From Panorpa germanica (Eukaryota > Arthropoda > Insecta > Mecoptera > Panorpidae), in the NCBI GenBank assembly GCA_963678705.1, contig OY783203.1, positions 30,672,535 through 30,736,534 on the forward strand: 64,000 bases of DNA. The letters run 5' to 3'. Position 1 is the stretch's first letter. Each line of letters opens with the position of its first letter. Positions 30,701-61,796 of this stretch are shown here, in pieces. The position numbers and the translations under genes are program-made. The notes under the pieces were generated by a model. That model worked only from the letters and a program-made list of their open reading frames with translations, made no database searches and had not been told where the DNA came from.

Positions 30701-33700
30701 AAATCACAGAGTGCTCAGCCTTTCATGGCTTAACACTCTCAGCCACTGTGCTGTAAAATTCCAGATATTTCAAACATTAAAGGTTTTTGGTAAGGTTTTA
30801 TAGGCGTGCCAAATATAAATAAAAATGGAAAAAATTCACGTATAGAATAAATTTGGCGCAACTAGTGTAATAAATTTAATTTATTATAATAAAAAAAATT
30901 CAATTCAAGATTAATGTTTATACTTTAGAACAAGTTGGCTAGTTAATATTTGATAAATTGTAAATTACTTTTTCTTTTTTTTTTGTACAAACTCTGTACT
31001 GAGATGAACTTTATTGTCATTCCAATTAACTTATGGTAATCCCCGAAATAATTGATTGATTGGCTTGTTCTATAGAGAGTGTGCAGCAGTACACTAAAAC
31101 CATCACATTTGAATTACTGGTCGACATTTGCAACAGTATCAAATGAAATCTTAAAAATTTCTATAAGCTAACAAAAAGCCATTTGGCATAATTAAAATCT
31201 TGATAATCGTAAGCAAAATATGATCCTTCATTCATAAAATTTTCGCAAATATTAATTACGACAAATTATTAGAATGATTTATTATTTAATATCAGGTTTT
31301 CATAAATCATTAAATCAACTGAAGTTTTAACAATTGCTTTTGGTTGATAGTTGACTACATGTTGGTGCATATTCTCTATAGTAATAACATAGATGTATTC
31401 ATTTAGCTCAATACGCTTTATACTCGTATAATCATGTGTTGTCTGCTTTATTTGCATTTGTAGATGCTTCTGATACTGAAGCTATAATGGAACCATCATC
31501 TGTATCTCAGCCTATAGTGCCAGGCGTTCAAAATTCATCGGGAGTTTCATCATCACATTACCATCGTCCTCCGTCTGATTATTATTCTGATAATTACCCG
31601 GAAGGAAATTATACACCACAAAAAGTAGGGAACTTTAATCAAGAAGTTAAACAACAAGGGTATAACAAACCACCAGTTCCACAAAATATGGGTCATAATG
31701 CAAATTATGTTTCATCCGAACATAACACAAATCATGGGAATCTTCCCACAAAAACCGCTGTATATCAGAATCATCCTGGGCAACAACACCAACACCATCC
31801 CAATCAAACGTATAGTAACAGCACGCCATATCCTGATAACCGAGCTATGTATAACAACATGGATGCATACGCTCAAAACAATTCTCCTTATCCAAATCAG
31901 CAATGGATAAATCCCAACGTTTATCCTCAAGGCAATGCTGCGTACCCTCCCAATTATAGTGTTGGTAAAATAGCCGATTACGACCCAATAGTGGATGGTC
32001 CGAGGAACTCGCCTTACACAGCAAGACAGAGTGCCACCTTAATATACAGTTCCGATAAGGGAGCAGGTGAGACCACATTATACATTTATAAATAAATATT
32101 ATACCGAGTTTTGATAACCTAGAATTCTTATCATTGTTCGGTATATTGAACTTTTAACCAGTCACTTTCAACCAGTAAATTAAATGGGTAATAATAATTA
32201 TTTACTAGTAGGGAAAATTGAAATCAGCTGCGCTTAACTCAGCTCAAAATTTACAATATTAAAGGAAAATAACGGACTACAGATCATCAGGTATAAAAAC
32301 AAACAGTAAAGTAAGAAAATAAGATGGTTTAGCCTTATTTTATGTTTGGTTGACATTTTGTATTTGTAACTAATGTATTCAGTGTTATTTTGTTTATTTG
32401 CTTTAATCGTTGGCACTTTGTGTTGTGTTTTATAACTAGATGCTTTTAGATAACCTTTTTGATGTTAGCATTTTTTGAAATAGTTTTTTCTTAATTGCAA
32501 TAAAACATATATGGTTTATTATGATCTTTAACTAATTGAATAATTTTAGTGGCAGGCCAACCTACACGACGAATTGGATCTATTGCAGATATCGATCCAA
32601 TCAACAATGTCTATGGCTCACTCGGAGAAGCTCAATACCATGCAAACAAATCTAACAATGTTCAGAATCCAGCACAACAACAAACATCAGGAAGCAACAC
32701 AAATACTCATCCAGGGCATAATATTCAGCATCCTCAAAATCCAAATCAGAACATTCAAGGAGTAATTACCTTTTTTTTAATTTAATAATAAAATATGTTC
32801 AATTGTATATTAAAAATATGAATTATACAATTTAATATATATATATATATAAACATTACATAGGATATAAGATCTATACATCTTTGTTACAATAACGTAA
32901 TATATAATCGTTACTTATAATTATATCATCTTCTCAACTTACACCAAATTTGTGAAGTTGTCAATTTCGTGAAATAGACAGATTTCTTAAGCAATGTTTG
33001 CCTAGTTAGTGAAACAAGCAATTCTTTATAAGCAGTTGTCAATATAAATCTTTATAGTGAGAAGTAATAAAGAATTATAATTACAATATAATATGAACAT
33101 AAACTTTAAAGAACGAACAGATTTTTTATCCAGTTGTATCTAGTTAAAGTGTATTTCACGAACTAGGCAACCATTACAAACTAGTAATGTTTCCTAAGTC
33201 GATGTGAAGTATACAGGTTTGCTCCTTACATTGCCATTGTTTTTGTTAACTCAAAACAACATTAACAACAGGTTGTTATTATTTCTTTAATTCTAATTTT
33301 AAACGTTACTCTCTATATTGTCATCCAAGTTTAGAACCACAGTAAACTTTCGTTTACAAATTGTTTTATATTGAAGTAGTTATTTTATCCTCCAATGTTT
33401 TTCATACAGTTTTGTAAACAGTTAAATTAATAAATAAAGCTATAGTAAAAACGAAACAAAACAAAAATAAAAATACATTTAAGTATTTACATGCCGTATC
33501 AAAGTATGCATCTCAAGTAGCATCAATTTTATGCAATTGTGTCGAGAAAAAACTTATTATTACCACTTACTTGTTACAACTTCTCGTGTCTTTAAATGAA
33601 ATATTTCAAGAAAATCTCTAAAATATTATATTAATGTAATAAGTATTGGAATAATTGTTAAAACATAAATACTATAAGTGAGTGTTTTTTTTAGAGAGTT

Positions 33701-33874: not shown

Positions 33875-34948
33875 GGCAAGTATACCTCAATCTCACTAAA
33901 GAAAAATATTTGGATTTCAAAAATTGTTTTTGTAATTCATTTAATTCTATTACTAAAATAAACGAAATAAATGGTAATCGGATGACACTTCAGTTCTTTT
34001 AATTTTTGTAATGCTTATGCTACATAATATTAATCAGTGTCTCATGATATATGTTTTACGAATATGCATATAATATGCATTACATTACATGTATTACACA
34101 ATTCTACCATCATTTATATTATAACCATTACAATTTCGAAAAACAAGTTACGGTTTCTTACCAACTAAATATAATATTCTTTTGAAACGTTTCTAATTTT
34201 GAATTTTTTGTTTCAGATTTGATTCCAAAATTATATATTTATATGTTTTATAGAATGAACAATAAAAATCAAAATGGTTAAATAAATACCATTAAGTCAC
34301 ATTAACAACTATTAAAAATAATATTCTTACTTATTAAATACAATTTTGATTTTTACAAACCTATATAATTGGTATAATTAAGTACTAATATAATATGAAA
34401 GTATTATTTCTTAAATAATTTAATATATTTAATTTTTAAATTAGTCGCAAACTTTGTTATATAAACCAATAAATAAATGCTGTATTTCATTTAATATTAA
34501 AATTAGCTAATTACTTTAGAATCAGAATCCATTAATTATGTTCTACTTATTATAGTTATTATTATTTAAAATGTTCAAATCAATGTTTAATATTATCCTA
34601 TAATATCTGTTACATTCAGTAAGCAAATACACTTTAATTTTAAAAATTTTATAAACAAATAAAATACGTTATTCTGTTAATAATATGTATTTTTATTTGA
34701 TAAGTAAAAATTATGTTAAACTTATAAAAAAGTACAGAGAATTGTCTCCTTTATAAATTATTTTCACATTAACGTCTTAAAGAAAATATATAGAGTTACA
34801 GAAAGTTTTTATGGGAATGTATCATAAATTGTGCGGTTGCATTTTACCTGTCTAATTTCATTTATTTTTAATTCAAGAGCTCTGTTATATTTAATATAAT
34901 ATTTATAATATTGCTTAAATATAATTCAGATTGTATGGTGACGTTAAG
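33875..34948. other. Convergent 3' regions of Lasp (+) and glycosyltransferase copy A (-)
   Basis: Plus-strand AATAAA signals at 34261 and 34281 are plausible Lasp poly(A) signals. On the minus strand, AATAAA complements 34861-34866, some 80 bases past the copy A stop. A CAAGTATAC donor-like site just after the Lasp stop and a TTTCAG at 34216 could mark a spliced 3' UTR, but this is untested. Confidence 0.5.
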
Positions 34949-37900
34949 TTAAACATTTGCAAGGTCCACTAGAAACCATGTATACAGGATTTGCTGACAT
35001 CTTTCTGTCAGATTGTAGCGAAGATTGTTTAACCCGTCAGTTTTATACCGCTGTTTACTCGTTTGTAAAAGCGTTCTCCTATATTCAAAAATGTTTTATT
35101 ATTTTGCTATCTTTAAAAACGTAAGAATTTAAACAGTAAGTTCCAAAATATATTTACCGTTCTTCATTAGGTTTCTCTGGTGCGTGTTTCAGCATGGTAT
35201 ATCTGCCTATATCTTCCGATCCTCGTATTACCTGGTATCCCTGGTCTTGAATTCTACAAGTAATTACAACACAGTATTATTGAAAATATATGGCTGTTTC
35301 GGGTTCGATTCCTGGATAAGTGCTACATACTTAGAATTTGGTGGCTTTTTCGTGTAACTTGATTTCTTTTTTATGAACATTAATAACATTGAACACGAAT
35401 GAAATATTTAAACAATATTAATCTAATTCGGTGAATAAATGTTCAAGCTTTATTTTAAAAATATATTATAGAAAGCATATGAATTATTTAAGGAGTTGAA
35501 TGCGTAAAATTTGTTTTAAATTTCCTAATATTATTTTATACCTGCGGCCACAAATGCAAAGAGAAAATATAATCATACACATGAGACCCGACGCAAAACC
35601 AGTAACCCGTTTTTCTTTGTTGTTGTTGTTTTCTTTTGTTGCTAAAATTGATTTCGCTTGCAACAAAATAGTATTTAACAGGTGTAATGAGTGATTACAG
35701 TGAAGATATTATACCTGGCATAGATGTCGTCGTCTTCTCCTCCCCATCCCCAAAATGAATTAGAATATCCATTTATTTTTTTGTATTGATCAGTTGGAAT
35801 GGCAACTACTCCACCAAATATTTGCTCATAAGGCAATCTAAAAAAGGTTAATCCAAATTTATCAGACTTTATAGAAATTGAAAAGAGATTTATCAAAATA
35901 ATTTATTCCAAACTTGTATTTCGCTTATTATACTAGTAACCATGTGTGTATGTAGAAATTCAGATGATAATAGCAGTTAAATGATTTTTCAGCATAATAT
36001 TTAATAATCTTACTTATAGTTGAAAATATCAACAGCAACACTCATATGACGAGGATATTTTGGACAATTGTAGAGATTGTGGTCGTTCTCAGGTATAAGA
36101 TCAACGTCATGAAAAATAAAACAATCGAAATTCTGAATCTTGAGAGCCTCAACTACTCCAACATTAAAAAGAGTTGCTTTGTTAAATAGTCGGTTTTTAG
36201 TTTGCTCCACTACAAAAATTGTGTATTTAATTTGTTGTTTCATCAGGAACGGATGTAAATTGTTAAGTAGCACTGGTAATTGTGATTCACGGTTTCTGAA
36301 AAAAGAAAAGGTTTCTGTAATAGGGGTTGTGCGAAAATTTTAGCAAAATTTTTATCAAACACTAATATATCAAGAATATTTAAGATATCTTGTGAAAGTT
36401 GAACTAGATCACAGAAAGTATACTCGTAAACCACAAAGCATGTATATTACCACCTTATATTCATATAATAATTTAGTTAAGCAAAACCATGTAATATTTA
36501 ATCTAAAAGGTTCTAATTGTATTATTTTATAGCTATTCTAAAAGGTTTTGTTTCTCAAAAACACATCGTATAAACGAAAATTAAAAAGTAAATCTTTGTC
36601 AACTTTTCGATATTTATACAAATATAAAATTCGATAGACATATTTAAGCATTTACCTATGTAGTTTTATATCGGTTTACTCCGAAGAAAAAGTCATTTGA
36701 AACATATTATTTTGCTTATTGTGTAGACAAACAAAAAACAGTTATACAATTATAAGTTGTTAATTAAATAAATTACGTCAAAGAAAAAATGTATAATTAT
36801 CAATAAGAATAAATAAGTTTTAATTAAATTAATTGTCAAGTTTCTTGAAAAAGAAATTCCAAAAAGATAGAAACAGCGGTATAAATTTATATTGTTGAGT
36901 AAAAATAACATTGAAATAAAGGAGAGGATTTAACATAAGGTTGCTTAATTTTACCTTTAACTTTCAGGATGGTATTGATTTTTTTTACTATTTTATTAAG
37001 GCAATAAGAATAATAACTTTTTTTATATATACAAAATTTACTTCATAGAAAATGGAACGCCTGAATATATGGCAACACACATAACCGCTTCTACATGTCA
37101 CTTTTTTAAAATTGCAAAAGTATTTGGAATAATAATAAAACCTATGCGTATGTTTTATATTTACACATTATATCGAATTTATTACCTCATTGGTATTATA
37201 ATTGCAATCCATTCTCGAGTTTCGCATGACGGAAAAAATGTTCCTCCTAGTATAAGAAGTTGTCCAATCTTTACTTCTACTTCGCGCATATCGATAAGCG
37301 ATGTGTTTACTTGGATATTACCCACTGAAAAATTAATTGTTTACATTGGTTTTTAGTATTTACGAGAATGGAATGGTCGATGAACATCAGACGGTGTTTT
37401 ATCACGTTTAATATCCAAATTGTAAGTAGCTGTAATATTCGTATTTTTATTTTTTTTTTATTATTTTGTAAAAGAAATTTTTGATAAGGTTTCAAAATGA
37501 CCAATACGGCAATAATGGGGTACAGCACAATTGCTGAGGAATCATAGAACAAAAATAATCCTTAAAATAACTTAACACTTAATTAAGTAATAAATACTAA
37601 AAGTTTATTTTTTTTTTTTTTATTTAATTTATTTAACGTCGGCCTATTTCCGATGCTGAGTCCTATCACCGACGACCTCCTTCAATGTTGGCAGTATTTA
37701 TGGTGTCGTGGCCTCATATATGTGGGCTACACCACTGCCTAATAACTGTATGATTATGTATGACCATAATCAATATAAGTTCATAATAACCAAACCCAGA
37801 AAATATATATCTGGTCCGGGGATCGAACCCGAAGACACAGCAGTCGGCGTCAAGCATCAATGCTCTCGCCCACTGTGTCGTCACTAAAAGTTTAATCTAT

Positions 37901-38725
37901 TGCTATTATATGAAAAATTGGTCCCCAAAATCATTCATTCAAAATGATTTATTTTTAAATTTAGAGTTAGAGTAGACTGTAGAGGGTTTACTAAAGTTAA
38001 AATAACACTAACTATTGAAATGCTAACTTGCCTAAGTTTGGGGGTATAGGCGGGCACTCGTTTTCATTTATGTCCTCTACATTATTTTCCTTAAAGTCAT
38101 TTAATTTAGTGAGCGTTTCCATATTTTCTAATTTTTCATTTGATATGTTTCCCATATCAGTTTCATTCTTAATAATTTCAATGTTAAATTTGTCATCTTC
38201 TACTTTTTCTGTGTCATCTTTTACTTTTTCTGTGTCATCTTTTGCCTTTTCCGTTTCATCTTTTGCCGTTTCTGTGTCATCTTTTGCCGTTTCTGTGTTT
38301 TCAAACATAATATCAGCATTGGTCTTGTAAGCAGCGACAGCGTCGTTGTTATTGCTTTCGTCTTGTAAGTTGACCACATCAACTTCTTTCTCAATATCAT
38401 TATGGTTTTCATTAATGTCGTTCATTGGTCCATTGTTGTTAATTATTTCAACAGCAGTCCCTTCATCTATTATCTCCTTTACTTCTTCATCAGTGTGTAC
38501 CTCGTTTCTTTTACCTGTTTCGCTCGATGCAGTTTTCGTGGAATATAAAGTAGGTACATTTTCATTGTCTTGAGAGGATATTCTTAACAGCGATACAGCT
38601 TTATTATTTTCGTTGCGAAAATAAATTTTTAGAGATACTAATACAAACACAGTTACAAGAAGCCCACAATATATTTTATACAAAAGCCGCTTTGAATACA
38701 TTTTACGATATGCAATGGAATTCAT
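34949..38725 (-). CDS. Beta-1,4-GalT/GalNAcT family glycosyltransferase, copy A
   Basis: Type II Golgi transferase of family GT7, probably adding beta-1,4-linked GalNAc to GlcNAc ends of glycans. Exons (5'-3'): 38725-38032, 37324-37186, 36295-36014, 35837-35715, 35253-35158, 35078-34949; 487 residues. Membrane anchor about residues 15-33, acidic stem to about 224, then the catalytic domain. Visible motifs: DVD at 341-343, WGWGGEDDD at 401-409, metal-ligand pair M433 and H436, four conserved Cys. Ile378 precedes FGGV; the equivalent bovine beta4Gal-T1 residue is Tyr289, and Ile or Leu there favours UDP-GalNAc. Two oddities: FNK replaces the usual FNR, and Ile368 replaces a conserved Lys. Intron 1 needs a GC donor (TTAG|GCAAGT); the nearest GT would give a stop at once. 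A second in-frame Met (residue 9, MYSK) matches the starts of the other copies. Confidence 0.9.
36296..37185 (-). other. Copy A intron 2
   Basis: AT-rich intron between GTAATA at 37185 and TTTCAG at 36296. No element recognised. Short frames at 36243-36434 and 37069-37356 are chance or antisense to exons. Confidence 0.7.
37608..37882 (-). mobile_element. tRNA-derived SINE, full copy with 12-bp TSD
   Basis: 275 bp in intron 1 of copy A, flanked by the direct repeat ACTAAAAGTTTA (37596-37607 and 37883-37894). On the minus strand it starts at a tRNA-like head with a B-box match (GGGTTCGATCCCC) and ends in a poly(A) tract. It reads as identical to the copy at 44349-44619 outside the tail, so it is young. 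No coding capacity; it would depend on LINE machinery. Confidence 0.9.
38191..38301 (-). repeat. 21-bp coding tandem repeat in the copy A stem
   Basis: About five units of 21 bp, each encoding a seven-residue acidic/lysine unit of the type DTEKAKD (variants DTETAKD, DTEKVKD, DTEKVED). They lie in the lumenal stem, are in frame and carry no stop. The other two copies lack this array. Confidence 0.9.
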
Positions 38726-40354: not shown

Positions 40355-41416
40355 CAGCGGTTCTCAAAGTGTGGGGCGCGACCCCCAAGGGGGGCGCAAT
40401 GAAGACTCAGGGGGGGCCCAAAGCTTGGTTGAAAAATGAATTAAATTTACTTACAAAATAATAAAGCAAACTTTTTATTTTTAAAATTACAACAAGTGTA
40501 TAATTTTTAGTCAACGTCGTAAGAGTGCCGAACATTTTATTTTTTTAAATTATCAGAAAATACAGAAAAAAGATGCAAATCTTCTGTAATGGACTGAAAA
40601 GGTGAAAAGATTTGTAATGAAGCTAAGTTTGTACGAGTGCGGTCTGAAAAGTGACAATTTGAAGCTATTTCCTAATCTTAAAATTATGATTGAAGAAATG
40701 AATCTCAAAACTATTCCAACCAATGCAAAGAAATGCTTTCTTAAACACTTAGAAATCCTCAAATCTCGTTTTAAAAAATATTTTAATGAGAACTTGGATG
40801 GTTTGGCATGGATTCAAAACCCGTTCAAACCTTCAGTCGATGAGTGCTCCCTCAACATGAAGGAAAAAGAAAACCTCATTGACCTGAAAGGTGACACTGG
40901 GCTTGAAATGAAGTTTCAAGAATCTTCTATCACATGCTTCTGGATTGGTGTATAAAAGGAACATCCAATTTTGAGTGAAAGGGCATTGAAAATACTCACT
41001 TCATTCGCCACAACATATTCTTGTGAAACTGAGTTTTCTGCTCTAGCTGCCATGAAGAGTAAATATCGTTCAAGACTGGTTGTGACCAAGGAACTAAGAG
41101 TAGCGTTATCAGAACTGACACCGCGTTTCAAGAAGCTCTTTTAATTATTATTGCTTTGAATTACAAATATCAATTATGTACTATAGTAGCTAAAATAATT
41201 AAATAAATTGTAATTCTTTGTATAGAATTTGTTGTTTGATTACGATTAAACCTATTAGAGTATGCATAGAATGTGCAAAACTTAATCAAATAAAAATTGA
41301 CTGTAAAATGTCAAATGCGACTCCCTTATAATATATAGTACGCTTACATGTGGGGGGGCCCGGCTTACAGCTGGATTATGCAGGGGGGCTCGAAGTAAAA
41401 AGTTTGAGAACCGCTG
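40355..41416 (+). mobile_element. hAT element with 8-bp target-site duplication
   Basis: 1,062 bp. Ends CAGCGGTTCTCAAAGTGTGG and, complemented, CAGCGGTTCTCAAACTTTTT; flanked by TGATAAAG (40347-40354 and 41417-41424). The 8-bp duplication and CAGxGGTTCTCAAA ends are hallmarks of hAT elements. It holds only the 3' half of a transposase gene, so it is an internally deleted copy. Confidence 0.93.
40602..41144 (+). pseudogene. hAT transposase C-terminal half with one nonsense codon
   Basis: 180 codons in one frame ending at TAA 41142-41144, broken by a single TAA at 40953-40955. The C-terminal part includes KEHPILSERALK, SFATTYSCETEFSAL and MKSKYRSRL, the dimerisation region of the ZBED5/Charlie-like hAT family. 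The N-terminal BED finger and first catalytic region are absent. Apart from the one stop the frame is undamaged, so the loss of function is recent. Confidence 0.85.
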
Positions 41417-41972: not shown

Positions 41973-42722
41973 ATATATTATAATGTCCCAGGTGTATATT
42001 TATGATCTTATATTCTTATGTTCTTATATTCTTATGATCTTATATGTTTGGTAGCTCGAAAACGGCTACGTCAATGTTTTTGAAATTGCATATTTCGTAG
42101 AGAAAAAAATTCTAAGACTTTTGGCGTCCCCGGATTTTTCCCTGAGTTTTCTGGAAACTCGTAATTTTAAAAAAACTAGAAATAAAGTGAGCCCTTTTTT
42201 GCTGTATTTCTTTAAAAAGATAGAAAGTTTGATAGAAATGCTGATATTTGTCAAAAATTAGAAATTCAAAAATTGAAAAAGGGGGGTTGAAGAAATTCGG
42301 GGGCCCGGTAGGGAACTTTGGAGAAAGTTCATATTCTGAATTATAGAATAATTAAGTATATTATTAATTAAAGAAAATTCAAAATTTTATTTGGGAGCAC
42401 GGGGGAAGTATTCGCCGAGAGTAAAAATTGTGCTACAAAGATGAAATTTTGTATATAGGCTAACCTTGGTAACTTATTTACGAATCGAAAAAAAAATCAC
42501 ATATTTTGAAAAAAAGTTGGTCAAATAACGCATAAATTGAAAATATTTTTTATTTTGATAAAAAAAATATATTTGTTTAGTCAATTTATATGAAAAATTA
42601 TTTTATTATTGAGCGAGTTTATTATTTTAATTTAAAAATAGAGTTAAATATGAAATGTAATTACGAATTATTTTATTGGATTCAAATCATACACGCCAAA
42701 AAGAAAGGGGTTAAAGTTTAGT
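41973..42722 (+). repeat. Dispersed repeat DR1, copy 3
   Basis: Same orientation as copy 1: it starts near TATTATAATGTCCCAGGTG and ends in AAGAAAGGGGTTAAAGTT. Internal blocks match copies 4 and 5 closely, for example GCGAGTTTATTATT and CGAATCGAAAAAAAAATC. No coding sequence; the frame 42066-42254 is within it. Confidence 0.6.
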
Positions 42723-43202: not shown

Positions 43203-46200
43203 TTATGGTGTTGGTAAAGTAGCATTTGAAAGTTTTACTAGGAGCCTCGTGTACAGCGGGAACTGGCGTTTATCTTCCAAATCGTAGCGAAGGTCGTACA
43301 AGCCATCTGTTGAACGGTTCTCGAATGAATTAGCAAGTGAGGTCCTATAGAAAAAACAACATTTTATAGAAAGTGACACATAGAAATTTGTGTAGATTGT
43401 ATCTACTTAAAGCAATAATTTTACCGGTATTCTTTACGTGCTAACACTGCGTTTTTGGTCATGGAGTATCTGCCTATATCTTCTGGATAATGCATTACTT
43501 TGGATCCATAGTATTCATGTCTACAAAGGAAACAGTATTTAGCTTATTACTTTTATAAATTTAATATTTATTTAACATAAAAAATTTACCTTTTATCAAG
43601 CAAATGTTAACTCATGTGCAATGTTTTGTGACCTACTATACTTTATTATCAAAATACTCGATAATGGAGTAGATGAAAGGAAATAAAGTGACAGTAGAAG
43701 CGGATGAGATCTCGAGTTATTGAAATGAGCTTGTGTCCTATGTCTTAATTTCTATAAAAATGTACTATATATGGATAAAGTGGGTTACTAGAACCTCAAA
43801 TGTTCAATTATTTTTTAATAACTCCTTATATGTTAAGAGATATTAACAATTAAAAAAGTCATTTTGTCTCTTTAATTATTAAAGGGATTCAACGTTGTAC
43901 ACATTTCAAATGCATGTGACATCACAACCACTGCCAACCTTATAGCTCATAAATCTCTGCTATATGTATTAATATATCAAAATATCAAATATTATTTACA
44001 GCTATTTCAAGGAACAATAAAATTCCAATATAATGTCTGCCATAACTCTACAAACAATTTCTCTAAATTTCGTCCGAATCTAATACGATTCTAATGCGAT
44101 TCGGTTCAATCCGTTCGAATCTAATACGAATCTTGTCAACATTGTTTGTAGGGAACAGGGTTAAATAAAATAAAAATGTATTATTCTTTGACTTCACTTG
44201 ATTATTTCGGCTACCAACAGCTACAAAATATTACCACAGCACTGACCTACTCAACAAATAACTAAAGTTAAAATGCATTTCACATCATACAAATATGGTC
44301 GACCATTTCTGGTGCTAAAACTACAATTCAAATTTTGAATTGCTATATTTTTTTTTTTATTTAATTTATTTAACGTCGGCCTATTTCCGATGCTGAGTCC
44401 TATCACCGACGACCTCCTTCAATGTTGGCAGTATTTATGGTGTCGTGGCCTCATATATGTGGGCTACACCACTGCCTAATAACTGTATGATTATGTATGA
44501 CCATAATCAATATAAGTTCATAATAACCAAACCCAGAAAATATATATCTGGTCCGGGGATCGAACCCGAAGACACAGCAGTCGGCGTCAAGCATCAATGC
44601 TCTCGCCCACTGTGTCGTCGAATTGCTATATCTCCGTCAACATTTAGATATATAATAAAAAAGACACGCCAATACACATTTAACATCATTAACATTAACA
44701 TCAATTTCAATCAACAATTGAAAAATCGACCACTAAAAAATGAGGACATAAGCTCATTGTAAGCAAAGAACTTAGGAAGCGACGGAGAAGCGATACGAGG
44801 TAGAAGAAGGAATAACGAAAATAAAATAACGGAAGAGACGGAGGAGGAGATAGAAAGGGTAAGTGAAGAGGCAGAGAGTAATAAGAGAAATAAATATTGA
44901 AGTGAAGCAGCAGGAGAGCATGTGGGGAGGAGAAACAATGGGGGCCTGTTTCTTTTAACTCTCATGCGAAGTCAGTTGTATATAGTCATAATTGGAACAA
45001 GTTTTTAGGAAGACTGCGGCCCTCCTCGGTTCGTGTCTGTGGAAATGGTGAAAAGCAGTATAAGTCTGTAACTGTTGCTAGGTAAGAAAAAGGGAAGATA
45101 ATGGTTGACGAAAGTTAGAGGATGGACAGAAAAGAAGGAGAAGTGAGATGGTGAACATTGAATAGGAATAAATGACTGTAATTTTTATCCTTCGATAATT
45201 TAAAATGAAATGTGAAATACAGGTAAGCAGCTTGAAAAGCTTTAGTTACATACACTATACCTACTTCATTTAATTTTTAAAATAATTCTATCTTTCCATA
45301 AACTATCGTATTTCAGATAATATCAGTTTTTTTCAATAGCGGTTTTTTTTGTTAGTTTTGATAACCACAAAGATAATCAACTCATACCTCGTATAGAAGT
45401 CATCATCATCTCCTCCAAATCCCGCATACGCATTTGAATATCCATTTACAAGTTGGTATACGGCAGTTGGGACGGCAAGTACTCCTCCAAGAAATTTCTC
45501 ATAAGGCAATCTAAATCATATCAATCCAAAATTATTAGAATTTATAGAGATTTTAAAGTATAGTATAGAGTGTTTATCATTTCAAATTTACTACATAGTA
45601 AACCATATTATTTCAAATGGAAGAAATCAATCAATCAATTAAAATCAATCTAGAAAAAATCAATTGTATCTATCTGTAACAATTGCCTTCAACGAACACA
45701 GTTGTAACTAGCCATAATTGTCATACGGTTTTTTGATTGTAACCAATCACAATTCGCTTGAACGATACGCCATCGGCTGAAGTTGGATTCATTTGGAATT
45801 CGTTATGAATTCGATTAACAGACTTGAGTTAACAATGAACTCATAAAGAAATCACTTCCACTATTCCATTTCGTTTTATGATTTACTGGGTTGATAGATA
45901 AGATACTTACGTATAATTCAAAATATCAATAGCAGAACTCAAATGACGAGTAGATTCTGGACAAGTGTACAAACAGCGATCGTTCTCAAGTAAAAGGTCA
46001 ATGTCATGAAATATGAAACAATCAAACTTCTTGTCTTTAAGAGCCTCAACTACACCAACATTACAGAGAGTTCCTTTATTGAATTCACCTTCCGCGGTTT
46101 GTTCCACTACGTAAAATGTGTATTTAATTTGTTGCTTTATCAGGACCGGATGTAAATTGTTCAGCAGTATTGACAATTGAGAATCTCGATTTCTAGAAAT

Positions 46201-47984
46201 AATAAATATTTAATAATGTATGAAATAAAATAAACGGGGTTCGAGGAAGGTAATTTATGTTGCCAGCATTTTAGGCGTTACGATTATACATTACCTTATA
46301 CAAATTTAATTCAGCAAGAATTTAATTTCCTCACTTCTTTTATTCTATACTAAAAAATACTCTATTTGGGACATCTTCCTTTTTAGAAGAAATATATTTA
46401 ATTGAACGGTAACTTCCAAAACATAAATTTATAACTTAAAGAAAATACAACGCCAGAATAGACGGCAACACTAATAACAATCTCTTTATATAACACGAAC
46501 ATTATTTGTGATTCTTTTTTTTGTCTATACTATGTTATCTATAATTACCTTATTGGTACTATAATGGCAATCCAATGCCGAACATGACATTCTGATGGAA
46601 TAAAGGTTCCCCCAGGTAAAAGAAGTGATCCTAATTCTTTCTTTATTTTTAATCTATCAACAATTATTGAATTCGTTTTGATTGTACCAACTGGAAAAGA
46701 AATTGGATGAACATTGTTATAAATATCTACAAATTGTACAAATTGGGTTAACAACAATAAAGTTTACTGAGAGATATAATTTTAGACAAATATGAAATGG
46801 TCAACACAATCTTTAAGAAATTTATGCTAGATTTGTTGAAATAAATTTATTGCATTTGTTTGTTTATCCCCTAAATCGTTTATAAACCTATAACTGTAGT
46901 AAAACTATTCAAGCTAGCATATAGGGACTTAAAGGGTGAGCGTTTACCGTTTAGCATGGAAGGCAGTGGATTTTTTAGTGAAACGTAGAAGAGAAATCTG
47001 GTGAAATAAAATCGAATTCTTTTCAAATTAAATATGGCTAGTATTGTTTAATTAAAATACCACATATATTCAAGGAAATATCCAATTCCTGTGTTTTACA
47101 GAAGGATTCAAATCTGATTTCTTACAAAATTTTAATAATAGTTGCTTTAAAGAATTTATTAAAATATTGTTTAAAAATTTTCCATAAGAGAAAAAATGCA
47201 GGGTATGTATTCCAGTAATGGGACAAAACTATTTTTATTACTCACTTTGATCACCATCACCAATATTGAAAAAAATATTTATAAAATTTGGTTTCTATTT
47301 TTAAACACACAAGCCAAAAAAAATCTGCACTCTCAATCAAATAATCAAATCAATGAAAAAATAAAAAATAATGAAATATTTAAAAAGCATTTTTTATTTA
47401 GAAACTGTTCTCGGCTCTTTGTTTTCTCGGAACATAGTTTCAAGATGCTTTCAGAGTTGTAGCAACTTTAAAAATTAAAAGAAATCCAACTTGCCTAAGT
47501 TTGGAGGTTCATCTGGACAATCTGCTTTATCTATGGCTTCTGAATTATTTATGGCAATGCCAACTTTTGGCAAGTTCACAGTTGACAGTACGAGAATATC
47601 TTTATTTTTAAAGTTATTCTTCCTTATTGTAACTTTCTCAGTTTTAGTTTTTTCAAGTTGTTCTTCTGCGCTAATATCTTTTATTGAAATTTCATTGTTT
47701 TCATCATCATCACTCGCTTTATCGTCTTCTTCACTTGCTTCTTTATCAAGGTTTATTGCCTCATTTTCGTTATCTTCTTCGCTTGATTTAGTTTGGTTGG
47801 CACGTAAATTAATAGAAACACTTTCTTCTTCAGGATAAGAAATATTTAAAAGTAAAAGATCTTGGGTATTTCTAGAATCTAAATAATATTTAAAGGATAC
47901 TACTATTATCATCATTAAAAGAAATATACAAATTATTTTAGTGGATATCCAGCATTTTAGTTTTGAATACATTTTGCCACACAA
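43203..47984 (-). CDS. Glycosyltransferase family 7 paralogue, copy B (probable pseudoenzyme)
   Basis: Exons (5'-3'): 47984-47495, 46690-46549, 46192-45911, 45510-45388, 43520-43425, 43344-43203; 424 residues with no stop or frameshift. Membrane anchor about 17-30, acidic stem to about 156, then the GT7 fold. The DID metal motif (274-276), M366 and four conserved Cys remain. The signature WGWGGEDDD reads AGFGGDDDD (334-342), and the metal-ligand His is Asn369. In bovine beta4Gal-T1 numbering these are Trp312, Trp314, Glu317 and His347, which serve substrate and metal binding and catalysis. Phe311 sits at the donor-specificity position. Loss of activity with the fold kept is inferred. Intron 1 needs a GC donor, as in copy A. 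Intron 4 (1.9 kb) holds a MITE with nested insertions. The start could be Met1 or Met5 (MYSK, as in copy C). Confidence 0.88.
44047..44156. mobile_element. 110-bp micro-MITE nested in a larger MITE
   Basis: Absent from the matching site in the other MITE copy (about 9910), so it is an insertion. Its ends CTACAAACAAT and ATTGTTTGTAG are inverted repeats, and the empty site suggests a 3-bp duplication AAC. The interior has two near-repeats of CGAATCTAATACGA. Confidence 0.65.
44349..44619 (-). mobile_element. tRNA-derived SINE, full copy with 12-bp TSD, nested in a MITE
   Basis: 271 bp flanked by GAATTGCTATAT (44337-44348 and 44620-44631); the uninterrupted site can be seen in MITE copy 1 near 10097. 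It reads as identical to 37608-37882 outside the poly(A) tail. The frame 44445-44762 crosses it and is not a gene. Confidence 0.92.
44765..45230 (+). repeat. AG-rich retroelement-like stretch
   Basis: Purine-rich, charged-codon sequence like the LINE relics elsewhere, but no diagnostic motif could be read in any frame. It lies next to the MITE in copy B intron 4. Confidence 0.3.
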
Positions 47985-48162
47985 TAAACAACCGTTTCTA
48001 GAAAAAATAATTTCAATCTAATGAATTAGTTATATTTCACTATATTTAACTTAAACGACTAGCTAATTATAATTTCATTTCATTTATTTATGAAAAAGAA
48101 ATTAATAGCATCTGGACAAATATTTTGCTCTGGATATACTCCATAGAAAATAAAAAATAAAT

Positions 48163-48236
48163 TTATTTAAGTAAATATTATTTGCATGCAACAAAATAAA
48201 TATTGTCCGACAAATATTCAAAATGTTTACACACTG
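48163..48236 (-). promoter_or_regulatory. 5'-flank block shared by the glycosyltransferase copies (B)
   Basis: TATTTGCATGCAACAAAATA, followed by AAATATTCAAAATG, corresponds to the block upstream of copy A. It lies about 180 bases upstream of the copy B ATG. Confidence 0.45.
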
Positions 48237-48589
48237 ATCCGCATACGTTTATTTATTTTGTTTTTGTAAAAATTGAAGAAATATTAGGTATCAATAATAA
48301 ATAATTGATTTTACTTACAAGTTATTCATATTCACATAAATAAAAATTGACCAAAATTTCTTACTAAAGAATTTGTAACTATATTTATAATAACATATTA
48401 TTGCTTTAAAGAGCAACTTATTCCTAATTTCTTTATACATTTAGATTGTATTTTTTTAGACTACGTATATTTAGACTAATTAGACTACGAGTTTACAACT
48501 ATATATAAAACTAGCTGTTCGGCCCGTCGCAAGACAGCGAGTGTGAGTTATGTATTTCCTTTTTAAATAATTAATATTTCAAATGTGTT

Positions 48590-49640
48590 TAATTTTTTAA
48601 TTGATCTATATCCGCTACACTTTAAATTGATAAACTGTTTAATTAAATTTCCAACATCTTTTTTAAATTCATGGACTTTTTATTCTAAAATTTTTTTTTG
48701 CATTTCTTTACATTTTTTTATGCAGTTTTGTTGGTTAGGGTTTAAATTAAAGAACTGCTTCATTACATTTTAATTATCTTCGCGATTCTGACTTTAATGG
48801 GACCTTTTTTAAATTCATAGACTTTTTTTTCCTAAAATTTTTCTTGGATTTCTTAAATTTTTTTGATGCACTTATGTTCGTTAGGCTTTAAATTAAAAAG
48901 CTGCATCATTACATTTTAAATATCCACTCGATTTTGGTTTTTATGCTACCTTTTTTAAATTCATGGACTTTTTTTTCCTAAATTTTTTTGATGCAGTTAT
49001 GTTCGTTAGGCTTTAAATTAAAGAACTGCATCATTACATTTTAAATATCCACGCGATTTTGGTTTTTATGCGACCTTTTTTAAATTCATGGACTTTTTTT
49101 TTCTAAATTTTTTTTTTGATTTCTTGAATTTTTTTGATGCAGTTATGTTCGTTAGGCTTTAAATTAAAGAACTGCATCATTACATTTTAAATATCCACGC
49201 GATTTTGGTTTTTATGCGACCTTTTTTGAATTCATGGACTTTTTTTTTCTAAAATTTTTTTTGGATTTCTTGAAATTTCTTGATGCAGTTATGTTCGTTA
49301 GGCTTTAAATTAAAGAACCGCTTTATTACATTTTAATTATCTCCGCGATTTTGGTTTTTATGCGACCTTTTTTGAATTCATGGACTTTTTTTTTCTAAAT
49401 TTTTTTTTGGATTTCTTGAAATTTCTTGATGCAGTTATGTTCGTTAGGTTTTAAATTAAAGAACTGCATCATTACATTTTAAATATCCACGCGATTTTGG
49501 TTTTTATGCGACCTTTTTTAAATTCATGGACTTTTTTTTTCTAAAATTTTTCTTGGATTCCATAAAATTTTTTGATGCAGTTATGTTTGTTATGCTCTAA
49601 AATAAAAAACTGCATCATTAGATTTTAAATATCTACGTAG
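48590..49640. repeat. 146-bp tandem repeat array, about seven units
   Basis: The marker AATTCATGGAC (first unit variant AATTCATAGAC included) starts units at about 48665, 48812, 48958, 49083, 49229, 49375 and 49521, spaced 146-147 bp except for one short unit of 125 bp. Each unit also holds ATGCAGTTATGTTCGTTAGG and GCGATTTTGG. AT-rich and non-coding. It begins just after a DR1-like head (ACTAGCTGTTCGGCCCGTCG, 48511). Confidence 0.9.
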
Positions 49641-49844
49641 ATACTCAAAAAATTGCATTGCTCTTAAAATCATAAAAGTGAACCTTTTCATCATTTTTAA
49701 CAAGATTATAGTCTTCTTTCTATATGGAGATTTAATATATTGATATATCATAAACTAAAATACTTATTTAAAAATTAATAACATATTTGAAATCAGTGTT
49801 CAATTTTATATTAAAAACCGTTATAAAAATTAGTTATTTTTTTC

Positions 49845-49902
49845 TTCAATTTTTATGAAAAGTAAGAAGAGTATAACCTTCTTACTTTTCATAAAAATTG
49901 AA
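49845..49902. repeat. Perfect 25-bp hairpin
   Basis: Arms 49845-49869 and 49878-49902 are exact complements (TTCAATTTTTATGAAAAG, then TAAGAAG) around an 8-base loop. It sits between the tandem array and its inverted units. Confidence 0.9.
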
Positions 49903-50164
49903 AAAAAAAATTCGTTGGTTTTTTAATGGTTTTTAATGTAGTTTTGGATGCTGATTTCAAATCTGGAATTCATTTTTATGTAAGTCTTTTGGTTTACGAG
50001 ATATGACCATTTTAAAGTAAAAAAATAGTCGAAAACTTTACACGCAGATTACTCTAAACTATAACAGATAATTCAAAATGGATTTCAAATTTGGAATCAG
50101 CATAAAAAATTACGTTAGAAAACATAAATCAATTTTAAAAAATATAAACATTTTAGTTTTACGA

Positions 50165-50480
50165 AAAAAGGTCCATGAATTTAAAAAAGGTCGCTTAAAA
50201 GTCAGAAAAGCTTAGTTATTTAAAATGTAATGAAGCAGTTTTTTAATTTAAAGCATAGCGAACATAACTGCATCAAAAAATTTCAAGAAATCCAAAAAAA
50301 ATTTTAGAAAAAAAAAGTCCATGAATTTAAAAAAGGTCGCGTAAAAGCCAGAATGGCGGAGATATTTAAAATGTAATCAAGCAGTTTTTTAATTTAAAGC
50401 CTAGCGAACATAACTGCATCAAAAAATGTAATAAAACGGTCTTTTATTTTAGAACATAAGGAACATAACTGCATCAAAAC
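50165..50480. repeat. Inverted units of the 146-bp array
   Basis: Two and a partial unit in reverse orientation (CCATGAATTTAAAAAAGGTC at 50172 and 50319, 147 bp apart). With 48590-49640 they form a large inverted repeat centred near the hairpin. Confidence 0.8.
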
Positions 50481-50762
50481 TTTCAAAGAATGAAGAAAAA
50501 ATTAGAAAAAAAATGAGCATGAACTTAATAAAATGTAAACATCATTGCGCCTGACAGAGCGGCAACATTACTTACAAGCAAAATTTACATCACGTTGGAA
50601 CATTGTAATATAAGATTATAGTCTTCTTTCATCAAGAAAATAACAGAAAATTTATGATTTTTTAAAGTCTAAAAGTAAACCTTTTCATCATTTTTAACAA
50701 GATTATATCCTTCTTTCATCAAGGGTATTGACAAAAAAATATTTATGCTGAAATGTAAAATA

Positions 50763-51609
50763 CACTAGCTTTTACCCCCGTCGCAAGCGACGTCTGTCTT
50801 TTGTGTGTGGCTTGAACTTCATGTAAAAATTTAAATTCCACTTGAGTTTACCACCGTCGCAAAGCGATGACTTTTTGGCGTGTATGATTTGAATTCAATA
50901 AAATAATTCGTAATTACATTTCATATTTAACTCTATTTTTAAATTGAAATAAATAATAAACTCGCTCAATAATAAATTGACTAAAAAAAAATATTTTTTT
51001 TTTATCAAAATAAAAAATATTTTCAATTTATGCGTTATTTGACCAACTTTTTTTCAAAATTTGGGATTTTTTTTTTCGATTCGTAAATAAGTTACCAAGG
51101 TTAGCCTATATACAAAATTTCAACTTTCTAGCACAATTTTTACTCTCGGCAAACACTGCCCCCCGTGCCCCCAAATAAAATTTCGAAGTTTTGAATTTTT
51201 TTTTATTAATAATATACTTAATTATTCTAGACAGAATATGAACTTTCTACAAAGTTCTATACCGTGCCCCCGAATTTCTTCAACCCCCCGTTTTTCAATT
51301 TTTGAATTTCTAATTCTTGAGAAATGTCAGCATTGAGTACCTTAATACACATGCAAAATTTCAACTTTCTATCTTTTACGAATTAAAAGTAATACAGCAA
51401 AAAAGGGCTCACTTTTTTTTCAGTTTTTTCAAAATCACGGGTTTCCAGGAAATTCAGGGAAAAATCCGGGGACGCCAAAAGTCTTAGAATTTTTTTCTCT
51501 ACGAAATAGGCAATTTTCAAAAACATTGACGGAGCCGTTTTCGCGCTGCCATACAAAGTTTACTACCAAACATATAAGATCATAAATATACATTTGGAAC
51601 ATTATAAAT
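50763..51609 (-). repeat. Dispersed repeat DR1, copy 4
   Basis: It begins CACTAGCTTTTACCCCCGTC and ends TTTGGAACATTATAA. It lies directly before copy 5 in the same orientation; the two are alike across their length. Confidence 0.7.
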
Positions 51610-51611
51610 AA

Positions 51612-52404
51612 GACTGAGTTTACCTCCGTCGCAAAACGACGTCTTTTAGGCGTGTATCGTTTGAATCCAATAAAATAATTCGTAATTACATTTCATATTT
51701 AACTATTCTATTTTTAAATTGAAATAATAAATAAACTCGCCAACATATACATTGACACATAGTAAATTGACTAAAAAAATATATTTTTTTTATCAAAATA
51801 AAAAATATTTTCAATTTATGCGTTATTTGACCAACTTTTTTTCAAAATTTAGGATTTTTTTTTCGATTCGTAAATAAGTTACCAAAGTTAGCCTATATAC
51901 AAAATTTCAACTTTCTAGCACAATTTACTCTCGGCAAATACTGCCCCCGTGCCCCCAAATAAAATTTTCAAATTTTGAATTTTTTTTTAATAATAATATA
52001 CTTAATTACTCTAGAATCCAGAATATGAACTTTCTCCAAAGTTCCCTACCGGGCCTTCGAATTTCTAAAACCCCTCCTTTTTCAATTTTTGAGTTTCTAA
52101 TTTTTTAGAAATGTAGGCATTGAATACCTTAATACACATGCAAAATTTCAACTTTCTATCTTTTACGAATTAAAAGTAATACAGCAAAAAAGGGCTCACT
52201 TTTTTTTTAGTTTTTCCAAAATTACGGATTTCCAGGAAATTCAGGGAAAAATCCGGGGACGCCAAAAGTCTTAGAATTTTTTTCTCTACGAAATAGCAAA
52301 CTTTCAAAAACATTGACGGAGCCGTTTTCATTCTACCATACGAATTTCAGCAACAAACAAACATATAAACATATAAATATACAGTTGGAACATTATAATA
52401 TAGG
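51612..52404 (-). repeat. Dispersed repeat DR1, copy 5
   Basis: It begins GAGTTTACCTCCGTCGC and ends CAGTTGGAACATTATAATAT. Its end lies within about 10 bases of the decayed glycosyltransferase exon 1, so insertion of DR1 copies may have removed or displaced the rest of that gene. Confidence 0.7.
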
Positions 52405-52408
52405 ATCA

Positions 52409-52945
52409 AAATTTCAACTTACCTAAGTTCGGAGTACTTACCTTAGTTTAAAGTAGACACTTTTTTGTATTATTAAAAGACAATCTTTGAAATTATTTGT
52501 ATTATTAACATGTATTTCACTAGGGTTTCTAATTTTAGTAGACTCTCAGTTGGTATGTTTCACAGTTTTAACTTTCTCACTGTGATGTTATCATTAATAA
52601 TATCATCATCAGTACTAACTTTTATTTGCAAATAAAGTAAATGTAAAATCTTTTTCCTCATTAAAGGATATTTTGAACAATTGTTTTACAATCAAATAAA
52701 ACTATAAAGATACTATGAACAATACAATTACAATAAATACTCAAACTAAAACTGTAGTTATAAAATTTATAGTTAACTTTAAAAAGGAGTTTATTTGCAG
52801 TTGATTTACGTTCAATGATACACTTGGCTAAATAGTTTTAACAAATATACGTTCATAAGTAAAATAATAGAAAACGCAGCAAAATATTTACTGTGTGATA
52901 AATATTGAATATGTTTGCAAACAGTCTCACAGAAGTTTACACTTC
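52409..52945 (-). pseudogene. Decayed fourth glycosyltransferase copy (exon 1 and 5' flank traces)
   Basis: TTCAACTTACCTAAGTTCGG at 52411 matches the exon 1 end and GT splice donor of copy C (on the minus strand CTTAG|GTAAGT). Further up, 52640-52790 loosely follows the stem and membrane-anchor region, and 52874-52945 matches the shared 5' flank of copies A and B (AAAATATTTACTG, then GATAAATATTGAATATG). No open frame remains and no exons 2-6 were found between here and copy B. The call rests on short matches and order; it needs alignment. Confidence 0.5.
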
Positions 52946-53992
52946 ATATGTATTAAAGCTTCTAAGTCTCTAAAGTCTCTAAGATTCGTCTAAAGCATGT
53001 TGTCACATCATATTAGCAATTATGTATAGTGGTTCAAGAACATCTTTAAATGCCGATAATTATTTACAATTTATCAAAGAATTTTAATTCGCTATAGATA
53101 TAATATAGTATAGATGTAGAATTGTGTAAGATATATTTTTTTTATAAAATGTATTCTTTATTCAGGTTTATTTTATAGTTAATATACATTTAAAGCTGAT
53201 AATGATCCGCCTGAGTTATTAGCAACACAAATTACTTCTAAAATATTGTAAAATTTAAAAGCGAAGAAGACTCTATTCTTATTATTTAAATTAATAAAAA
53301 AATTGTTATGTATTTTCTTTTTTAATTTACGTTGAAAAGCAGAAACAACATATGTTTTAATATTAATAGATTTTTTCAATTTTTTTTTATACAATTTGAA
53401 ACTTGTCGCCATCTATTAAAGAAATATTTAAATAAATAATAATGGTTTAAATATTACTATACATTGTGGTACCCATGCCATTTACAAAACAATTTAGTTC
53501 AGCTATTCATTACTAGAGGTTTTGTCGTTAAGTGAATTAATATAAATATAACTAATTCATAGATTGAAATTATTTTTCCTAGAAACAGTTTATTCTGTAA
53601 TTCTATATTAAAAATTCTATATTAAAAACTAAAATATTGGTTTTCCTCTAAAATACGTATTTTAATACTGAATAATACATTGATTTACATATAATACACA
53701 ATATATACATTTTATTTTTAAAATTAATAATATATTATTTAGTTTATGATGCTTATTTTCATATAATACGTAAGTTACATACAAAATATCTATCTATTTT
53801 TATATATACTAGGTAAAGATAATTATTTTTCATTACGAGCCAATTATAGATTAATGTGTTTATGAAGATACATTTATACAGAGTCTTATAGAAGTAAATA
53901 ATTAATGATGTGCAACATTTTACTTGCGTAACATACGCACGTAAATTTGTATATATATAATAATACAAAATAATTTAGATGTTATGTTTAAT

Positions 53993-57332: not shown

Positions 57333-59132
57333 CTGTGAATAAGGACAAATGATGAGCAAGATATTATTTACTTATAATGGTTAATATTTGACGTTAATTG
57401 GTTAAATTAATTTATTAAAATATTATTTTAATTTACTTACAAACTCAAACGCTTTAATGCAACAAACTTTATATTTTATCGAAGTTCTAATGCCTTCTAT
57501 GTTTATGTTAGCTTAGAACTTTTATTTTTTAAGATTCTTCTTCATTTTAAGGTATGGTAATAAGGTAATAAGTATGGATACACTACCAAATATATTATTA
57601 ATGAATCGTAGAATTGGTGGTCCACACTTGCTCTTCACGCATGATTTGTCTGTTCATCTTTCCAGCTAGTTAAAAGTCTACGGTACAGTTAAGTCTTTAT
57701 AGAGTACAGTTATAAGAATTATATATGCAATAATCAAGAATTGAATAGTTCTTAAAAATAAACGTTCAATAATTATAATAAAAATAAGATAAATAATACC
57801 AAAATTCACATTTTTAAGATATATAATATGATATTTATTGAATAATGTCTAACAACAAATAGCTACATTGGCAGGAGCGATGCTCCGATTGTTTATTACT
57901 TAAAATTACAGATTAAAATATAAGTTATTATTACATTATATAGTTGGCAATATATATATATATATACAATTTTGAATTTAGGTTTTCTGGTTTCTGGGAT
58001 TTTCTACGGACACTAAGAAGAACATCAATAATACGATGTAAAAATAGGATCTTACAAATTCTAGTTCTAGATAGCTTATTGTTATGTAGGTATATTTGAA
58101 TATAAATGTATACTTGAATATATATTTAAAATGTATGAACAAGCATACATATACTAGTTGCCATAGCATATCAATTTATTCCAGAAGCGGAACCAATATA
58201 ATTCTATTTCTCTATTGAATAATATATTCATTTTAAATTATTTACATTAAGATAAATAAAATAAAATCTTCAACGTGTAACTTTTGTATCTAACAAGATG
58301 AGCTCCCAAAGACGGTTTTACCCGATCAGTTATAGGTACGCTAAAAATTGTAAAGGAAGCCCTAAAAGTAACACGTTTCAAGATATGAAACAAATCACAG
58401 AACAGAAGCTCGGACACAAAGACTGAGAATTCGTTACTTTAACTTTAAACCATTATTATTAAAATATTTTACACGTCTATTATTAAAATTATCGAATTGT
58501 TTGTTTTTGAACTCATCTTTGTAACCAGGATGAAATCCTGTTTATAAACTTACGTCAGTCTATATTTGTTTAAATTTTGTCTTAAATGTAATTTGATTGC
58601 ATTATAAATTATATACATACATATGTTTTTAAAATACATAAATGTAACTATCTGTGCACTTACAAAAAATGGATTTAAATAGAATAACCACTGTGATTTC
58701 TTTGATTAACTATTGATTTTAAACTTTGTAATTAAAGGCACTGTATTATGGAATCATCATTGTAAAATGATTGAGCCATTTCAAAAATTTAGTATTATAT
58801 AATTTAGTATTTACACATTGTATGTGTCTTTTATTATGAATTTTTAAATTATTTCGCCGTATTGTTTATTTATTAATTGTTGACATATACGAATTACACA
58901 CTAGCCACTAGTTAGTGGCTTTTAAATTAAATATTTGTTAATCTAAGATACACTCGAAAAAGAGTTGTGACCTGGATATTGGTCCTCAATGTAACAAATC
59001 ACTTTTGTTTTAAATCTTTCTAAACATAACAGCACAATATTTTATTTAATACTCTTAACACCATTCGCAGCACCATCAGACTTAATAAAAATATATTATA
59101 ATGGTCTTTACTATAACTAATTGAAGATACCC

Positions 59133-61679: not shown

Positions 61680-61796
61680 TTTTTTTATATTCTTAACCAA
61701 GTAGTTACAATAATTCTAGTTCCTATTCTAAATTCGGATGTATTTGTGCTGAAACTCTACTGACAGCAACTTATTCTAATTGCCATTTCTATTCAC
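61680..61796 (-). other. Probable 5' UTR portion of the kekkon-type gene
   Basis: A TTTTTCAG acceptor ends just above 61796 on the minus strand, 117 bases before the ATG, suggesting an upstream non-coding exon beyond it. No such exon could be located. Confidence 0.45.

Follow-up and report, generated by a model that had tools for sequence, protein, structure and literature searches.

Three tandem glycosyltransferase genes of the GT7 family, here called A, B and C, follow one another head to tail, all on the minus strand of a 64,000-nucleotide stretch of the Panorpa germanica genome (assembly GCA_963678705.1, contig OY783203.1, positions 30,672,535 to 30,736,534 of the forward strand). This whole stretch is referred to as the window, and coordinates are counted from its first base. 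The middle gene, copy B, keeps a single open frame and carries replacements in the catalytic motifs that A and C retain. We propose, with moderate confidence, that copy B is a GT7 pseudoenzyme under selection, which would serve a non-catalytic role. The simplest account would be a protein that has been retained and whose mobile catalytic elements have become dispensable or have been remodelled for another purpose.

A tandem GT7 cluster with one altered active site

In spliced models each copy has six exons with identical phases, an N-terminal anchor and both Pfam GT7 domains, Glyco_transf_7N and Glyco_transf_7C. For copy B these domains score 156.6 bits (PF13733) and 70.3 bits (PF02709), with curated cut-offs of 27 and 23, and the gene is a member of the GT7 (beta-1,4-N-acetylgalactosaminyl/galactosyl-, or beta-1,4-GalNAc/Gal-, transferase) sequence family. 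An earlier sequence-only reading had placed an intact copy at 43203-47984; that span is correct to within 12 bases, and the intact six-exon frame has the phases of A and C. The gene models and the sites discussed below are as follows, with residues numbered as in bovine B4GalT1 unless marked human and lengths in amino acids (aa).

56506 to 53993, minus strand: copy A, 385 aa, with canonical WGWGGEDDD and MLRH
47972 to 43203, minus strand: copy B, coding span of the spliced model, 420 aa in one open frame
47972 to 47495, minus strand: B exon 1, short tail, membrane anchor and stem, with a GC donor
46690 to 46549, minus strand: B exon 2 of the spliced model
46192 to 45911, minus strand: B exon 3, most of the uridine diphosphate (UDP) pocket and the DID motif, by alignment
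46005-45997, minus strand: B DID motif, bovine D252-V253-D254 with V253I
45510 to 45388, minus strand: B exon 4, part of acceptor loop 1, the donor-selector site (Phe at 289) and the Trp loop
45425-45399, minus strand: AGFGGDDDD of B in place of WGWGGEDDD (W312A, W314F, E317D)
43520 to 43425, minus strand: B exon 5, Arg334 to His, Met344 kept, His347 to Asn, altered lid
43462-43460, minus strand: B Met codon (344), counted on the spliced model
43453-43451, minus strand: B Asn codon at metal-ligand position 347, counted on the spliced model and alignment
43344 to 43203, minus strand: B exon 6, ending with the stop
38701 to 34949, minus strand: copy C, 478 aa, with canonical WGWGGEDDD and MLKH

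The acceptors of copy B are AG at all five introns and the donors GT at four of five, intron 1 having a GC donor (AG/GCAAGT). The same GC is found in C (38031; 47494 in B), with GT in A and in P, a paralogue outside the cluster, and it is possibly a derived state shared by B and C. In the protein tree B groups weakly with C (support 19/51) and has the longest branch of the cluster. Copy B retains cysteines at bovine 134, 176, 247 and 266 and has a single N-terminal hydrophobic stretch as its anchor (19 residues from residue 9, hydropathy 2.56). The sequence-only reading was thus right that the DID motif, four cysteines, anchor and splice sites are kept, the intron 1 donor being GC as in C. At the exon 6 acceptor of copy C, a 3-base ambiguity shifts one residue. 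A misannotated exon 5 as the source of the odd lid of copy B was considered and rejected: the exon matches those of A and C in length and phase and has AG/GT sites. Models built from A and C detected no alternative exon 4 or 5 in the copy B region apart from matches with E of at least 3.

A family search of the 464 Mb genome gave 14 matches: A, B, C, P (C1), a further paralogue Q (C3), a more distant gene on C9 (the C9 gene), which we take to be B4GalT7-like, and eight weaker ones. No further close copy and no second B-like gene was found among the best candidates scored (19 matches for protein C, 18 for protein B). The Trp loop is WGWGGEDDD in P, FGWGGEDDD in Q and WGWGLEDDE in the C9 gene. 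Single positions of this loop can therefore vary within the same genome, and W312, which is F in Q, is not invariant. The altered Trp loop of copy B is private to it among the genes inspected.

Both active-site replacements first read in copy B are borne out by the spliced model and alignment: WGWGGEDDD has become AGFGGDDDD (W312A, W314F, E317D), and the M-x-x-H pair retains its Met and has Asn for the metal-ligand His (H347N). Copy B consequently has neither the WGWGGEDDD nor the M-x-x-H motif of an active beta-1,4-GalNAc/Gal-transferase. At donor-selector site 289, where Ile or Leu marks GalNAc and Tyr marks Gal, it has Phe, compared with Leu in A, Ile in C and Tyr in the bovine enzyme. In human B4GalT1, Trp310 (314 bovine) touches donor and acceptor, Glu313 (317) touches Gal, Phe276 (280) holds the acceptor, and Met340 and His343 (344, 347) bind manganese (Mn) weakly and strongly, respectively (PMC6198961). 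Our literature search returned no activity values for W314F, E317D or H347N mutants, the available passage of PMC4202792 being concerned with other enzymes.

Copy B has broken more conserved positions than its relatives. It alone departs from A, C, P, Q and the bovine enzyme at A229G, V253I, P257L, F280L, F290L, W314F, E317D, R334H, H347N and N376Y. Positions conserved in five relatives from this set are broken at 10 of 68 in B, 2 of 60 in A and 1 of 59 in each of C and P; pooling A, C and P gives 4 of 178 (Fisher p = 0.0006 against B). When positions common to two other copies and the bovine enzyme are counted instead, B breaks 19 of 97, A 10 of 88 and C 7 of 85. Five of the 19 B changes hit the 20-residue ligand list of PMC6198961 (V253, F280, W314, E317, H347), compared with 0/10 in A and 0/7 in C; A229G, P257L, F290L, R334H and N376Y fall outside that list. 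Ligand positions P187, R191, F226, D252, D254, L255, Y286, G292, D319, M344 and R359 are retained in B, as is D318. R228K is common to B and C, and positions 188, 360 and 363 deviate from bovine in A and C too.

The statement that only active-site residues had been lost was too strong, since most of the lid, the acceptor loop and both dimer salt-bridge partners are changed too. Homodimers of human B4GalT1 have an interface with Glu313-Arg330 (317-334) salt bridges that are highly conserved in GT7, and in cells they are abolished by H343A and M340H, not by D315A or M340E (PMC6198961). The residues matching human Glu313, Arg330 and His343 are Glu, Arg and His in A and C, and Asp, His and Asn in copy B. 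Because all three are changed in B, partnering through the canonical homodimer-type interface appears unlikely, and the partner role originally suggested is weakened to the extent that E317D, R334H and H347N would damage a B4GalT1-type interface. A role as partner or chaperone through the stem or anchor is possible. Loop 1 of copy B also carries the sequon N-Y-T (residue 299; bovine N281-Y-T283), and A, C and P are without a sequon at that place.

Single B-like changes were also scored in the C-terminal part of copy C. Its GT7C score fell from 107.2 bits to 102.4 with W312A, 101.8 with W314F, 104.5 with E317D, 103.8 with R334H and 104.8 with F290L, and rose to 107.7 with I289F. Because the five reductions are modest, the profile by itself is no proof of function loss.

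Constraint and change along the copy B branch

A scan of viral and genome contig collections with the A/B/C alignment gave 211 and 193 pattern matches, of which 0 were confirmed as relatives. This is expected of a eukaryotic gene, and as a result the ratios of nonsynonymous to synonymous substitution rates (dN/dS) reported here rest on paralogues of one genome. Branches within the cluster show moderate silent divergence (about 0.4-0.56 each), so that dN/dS is estimable. P shares the six-exon phases and has a dN/dS of about 0.04 on a branch saturated for silent changes.

Over the catalytic domain (three genes, 263 codons), dN/dS was 0.49 for B and 0.27 for A and C, with a relaxation p of 0.066 and B below 1 at p 0.015. 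All 373 aligned codons gave 0.47 for B (below 1, p 0.0035), and the stem alone gave 0.40 (below 1, p 0.19). Dividing the domain separated two regimes. The 35 codons of the Trp loop and lid had a dN/dS of 2.0 in B versus 0.15 in A and C in the three-gene model, and the remaining 228 catalytic codons had 0.35 versus 0.27 (p 0.47), with B below 1 at p 0.0017. Although the Trp loop was begun at W312 in the 35-codon set, the loop limits of PMC6198961, which give 34 codons, produced a similar contrast of 1.8 versus 0.15. In a parametric bootstrap of the loop contrast, none of 120 equal-ratio simulations reached the observed 25.0 (maximum 7.6). With P as an outgroup at its own rate, B was at 0.53 versus 0.27 (relaxation p 0.036; below 1, p 0.031) and the rest of the domain at 0.44 versus 0.29 (p 0.23; below 1, p 0.011), with p 3e-7 for the loops. 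Taken over the three-gene model and this one, the Trp loop and lid stand at about 2 in B compared with 0.16. Counts of B-specific changes agree, with 13 in the loops and 29 elsewhere compared with 4 and 49 in A and C together (p 0.0058). Based on these results, the conclusion that the excess change sits in the Trp loop and lid, and that the rest of the domain is still constrained, is supported, more weakly so in the shared-rate model described below.

Long neutral drift is no explanation for a frame that lacks stops. For each neutral substitution per site, B is expected to take about 61 nonsense mutations, and a wholly neutral B branch (0.23-0.25) would have gathered 14-15 stops where 0 are observed (chance of none <1e-6). 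For a final neutral phase of 0.03 the whole gene incurs a cost of 1.65 log units, and for one of 0.05 a cost of 2.77. The resulting 95% limit is about 0.035, or about 7% of the B branch (length near 0.5); if an indel rate is assumed as well, the limit falls to about 0.012. A neutral phase of up to 0.035 would account for about 3-5 loop changes (4.6 at 0.035, with two assumed as background), compared with 13 seen (p 0.001 or less). Merging the loop events leaves nine (p 0.045 or less). Under the whole-gene limit, this excess implies that constraint on the loops was lifted earlier than it can have been on the gene as a whole.

Several results weigh against a maintained pseudoenzyme with change confined to its loops. 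When P is given a shared background rate, B rises to 0.59-0.63 and a ratio of 1 is not rejected (p 0.11-0.20, four topologies); in the same model the rest of the domain is relaxed (p 0.002) and a ratio of 1 gives p 0.075-0.085 (two topologies), although, with one parameter fewer, that model falls 9.1 log units short of the fit obtained when P has its own rate. The loop rate depends on the set-up, falling to 1.09 versus 0.21 with loop 1 included (above 1, p 0.80) and to 0.70 versus 0.12 (p 0.027) when the loops are modelled separately with branch lengths of their own. A scan with no regions defined in advance had its peak on or beside the lid whatever the width, and was not significant (p 0.13-0.42). 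In several lid codons two or three bases separate B from A and C, and multi-base events would inflate codon likelihoods; with neighbouring changes merged, the counts become 9 and 26 in B versus 4 and 40 in A and C (p 0.067). Conserved loop positions are broken at 7/20 in B and 0/13 in C, but copy A also breaks 4/17, and loops compared with the rest give 7/20 versus 12/77 in B (p 0.063), 4/17 versus 6/71 in A (p 0.096) and 0/13 versus 7/72 in C. For the 263 catalytic codons with P, a neutral phase costs 1.8 at 0.08 and 3.1 at 0.125, placing the limit near 0.08 (about 16%). Finally, residual activity of copy B is possible, given that several replacements are conservative: W314F exchanges aromatic for aromatic, E317D exchanges acid for acid, and Asn is able to ligate metal.

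Maintenance, re-tuning or decay

In the reading we prefer, copy B is an insect beta-1,4-GalNAc-transferase (GT7) paralogue, one of a tandem set, that has become a pseudoenzyme. It would be a type II membrane protein in which, to judge by the sequence, the GT-A fold is probably retained. The mobile elements that cover donor, metal and acceptor on closure, namely the Trp loop, the lid and part of loop 1, would have lost constraint on the B branch, with selection still acting on the remainder of the domain, including the larger part of the UDP pocket, the DXD motif, the Asp pair that binds the acceptor and the cysteines of the disulfides. Judged from the residues alone, transfer activity would be lost or very weak. 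The protein may have been retained for some non-catalytic task in the Golgi, the most plausible candidates being the binding of glycan or nucleotide sugar, or interaction with another transferase via the stem or anchor and not via the B4GalT1 homodimer face. A more specific version, which we consider doubtful, is that most of the nucleotide-sugar pocket and the Asp pair have been kept and the loop and lid rebuilt under positive selection, making copy B a Golgi regulator of A and C that binds glycans or UDP-sugars. The B-specific sequon N281-Y-T283 would then also block the usual acceptor and dimer face. As for the original preference for selection over plain decay, the part that stands is the opposition of an altered catalytic apparatus to a protein that has been maintained; what does not stand is its restriction to active-site residues.

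Copy B could instead still be an enzyme, re-tuned to another donor, acceptor or metal, with its Trp loop and lid rebuilt accordingly. A loop dN/dS of about 2 is compatible with positive selection (above 1 at p 0.054 with three genes, 0.047 with P at its own rate and 0.02-0.025 with P at the shared rate), yet the signal is lost once loop 1 is included. The conservative nature of W314F and E317D and the retention of D318, D319, Y286, DXD and most of the UDP pocket fit continued catalysis, as does a selector residue (Phe) that differs from the Leu of A and the Ile of C, and BmGalNAcT has relaxed donor use (PMC7943597). Against this, the strong Mn ligand, human His343, is Asn in B, the Trp loop is termed strictly conserved across B4GalT1-7 and animal orthologues (PMC6198961) and reads WGWGGEDDD in A, C and P, and F280 and most of the lid are changed as well. 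On balance we consider a re-tuned enzyme rather unlikely.

An early pseudogene, whose loss of function would be too recent for stops or frameshifts to have accumulated, seems improbable. B is the fastest-evolving member of the cluster (relaxation p 0.066, 0.036 or about 1e-4, depending on the model), the remains of another, decayed copy are found between A and B, and the shared-rate model does not exclude a ratio of 1. A neutral phase of 0.08, as allowed by the catalytic codons, would also cover about 8 of the 13 changes in the loops and is thus not decisive. The whole-gene and indel-based limits on such a phase and the excess of loop changes argue against it, as do a dN/dS below 1 in the rest of the domain (p 0.002 and 0.011, but 0.075-0.085 in the shared-rate model) and the retention of all splice sites. 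If copy B is unexpressed, it would be an ordinary dying duplicate.

Genomic surroundings and related systems

The sequence around the cluster contains further relics and repeats.

53524-53655, plus strand: inverted fragment that resembles the start of copy B and its 5' flank (76% over 135 columns), with no such likeness to A or C
52748-52620, minus strand: relic D, the decayed first exon of a fourth copy, containing stops (E 1.3e-5 by nhmmer; E 7e-4 by tblastn with protein B over 48000-53990)
44348-44619, strand inferred as minus: insert in B intron 4 resembling a short interspersed element (SINE), identical over 272 bases to 37611-37882

Relic D is accompanied by a weak donor-like remnant at 52434-52408 on the minus strand (E 0.08), and the inverted fragment suggests a rearrangement involving the B promoter region. 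The twin of the SINE-like insert lies in C intron 1 (37611-37882), and each copy has its own flanking repeat; together with the 272-base identity, this indicates two recent independent insertions. Other SINE-like copies in the window are 78-79% alike. We presume the element to be a SINE from its poly-T end and a stretch resembling a tRNA B-box. A dispersed repeat of about 770 bases flanks copy B in opposite orientations (41978-42704, 50843-51607, 51615-52406), with more copies near 7.4-8.0 kb and 28.3-28.9 kb, and these repeats could drive inversions here. Just upstream of copy B, 48658-50435 is a tandem array of 146-base units with an inverted part. In the stem of copy C, a coding 21-base repeat at 38191-38298 (about five units, TEKAKDD-like peptide) has lengthened the stem. 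Between C and B, a relic at 40570-41140 presumably represents the end of a hAT-type transposase. The flanking genes at 29700-33880 and 59130-61715 resemble, as we take it, Lasp (nebulin repeats and SH3) and a kekkon-like membrane protein with leucine-rich repeats and immunoglobulin domains. A 237-codon open frame on the minus strand at 15615-16328 is presumably a mariner-type transposase.

With two canonical copies, one rebuilt active site and a decayed relic, the cluster offers a natural comparison within the same gene structure and neighbourhood. It allows one to ask why a Golgi transferase fold persists after catalysis goes, and whether a dead sister regulates LacdiNAc-type glycan synthesis in this insect. 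We know of no single-domain B4GalT-type protein among pseudo-glycosyltransferases with a known job, and none with a shown function was found in the part of the open-access literature covered (pseudo-transferases, bre-4 tandem duplications). Pseudoenzymes as such are common, with 313 genes, or about 8% of enzyme-like genes, in Drosophila (PMC12869072); glycosyltransferase ones with a known job, such as CHPF, Cosmc and IRX9, are fewer.

The closest comparison is with the insect GT7 beta-1,4-N-acetylgalactosaminyltransferases (Bombyx BmGalNAcT, Trichoplusia TnGalNAcT and Drosophila GalNAcT), which are alike in GT7N/GT7C domains, type II layout, DXD and cysteines. A and C keep the Trp loop and have Leu or Ile at the selector, the class tied to GalNAc transfer (PMC7943597). 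Compared by description, copy B is unlike these enzymes in its AGFGGDDDD, its Asn for the metal His, its Phe selector and its rebuilt lid. Degenerate GT7 paralogues are mentioned in Bombyx (PMC7943597), and XP_004926306 of that insect, a 'beta-1,4-galactosyltransferase 1-like' protein, can be set beside B by description only.

Among transferase-like proteins that bear comparison with B, CHPF and CHPF2 of the chondroitin polymerase contain GT7 and are described as having lost catalysis while stabilising an active partner; unlike B, they are two-domain GT31-GT7 proteins whose middle domain exchanges strands with the known partner (PMC12748766). Cosmc, the T-synthase chaperone, is transferase-like and paralogous to the active transferase that it serves, but it is a GT31 protein without DXD and does not bind Mn (PMC5493369), whereas B keeps DID. 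The ST3Gal1 H302A protein, a glycan-binding protein designed from a transferase, illustrates that a dead transferase can be a lectin (PMC12274613); it is an engineered sialyltransferase. IRX9 and IRX14 of plant xylan synthesis are unlike B in belonging to GT43 and in being thought to act with IRX10, but their predicted catalytic residues are dispensable and the DXD of IRX14 still matters, in keeping with the DXD that copy B has kept (PMC4132061).

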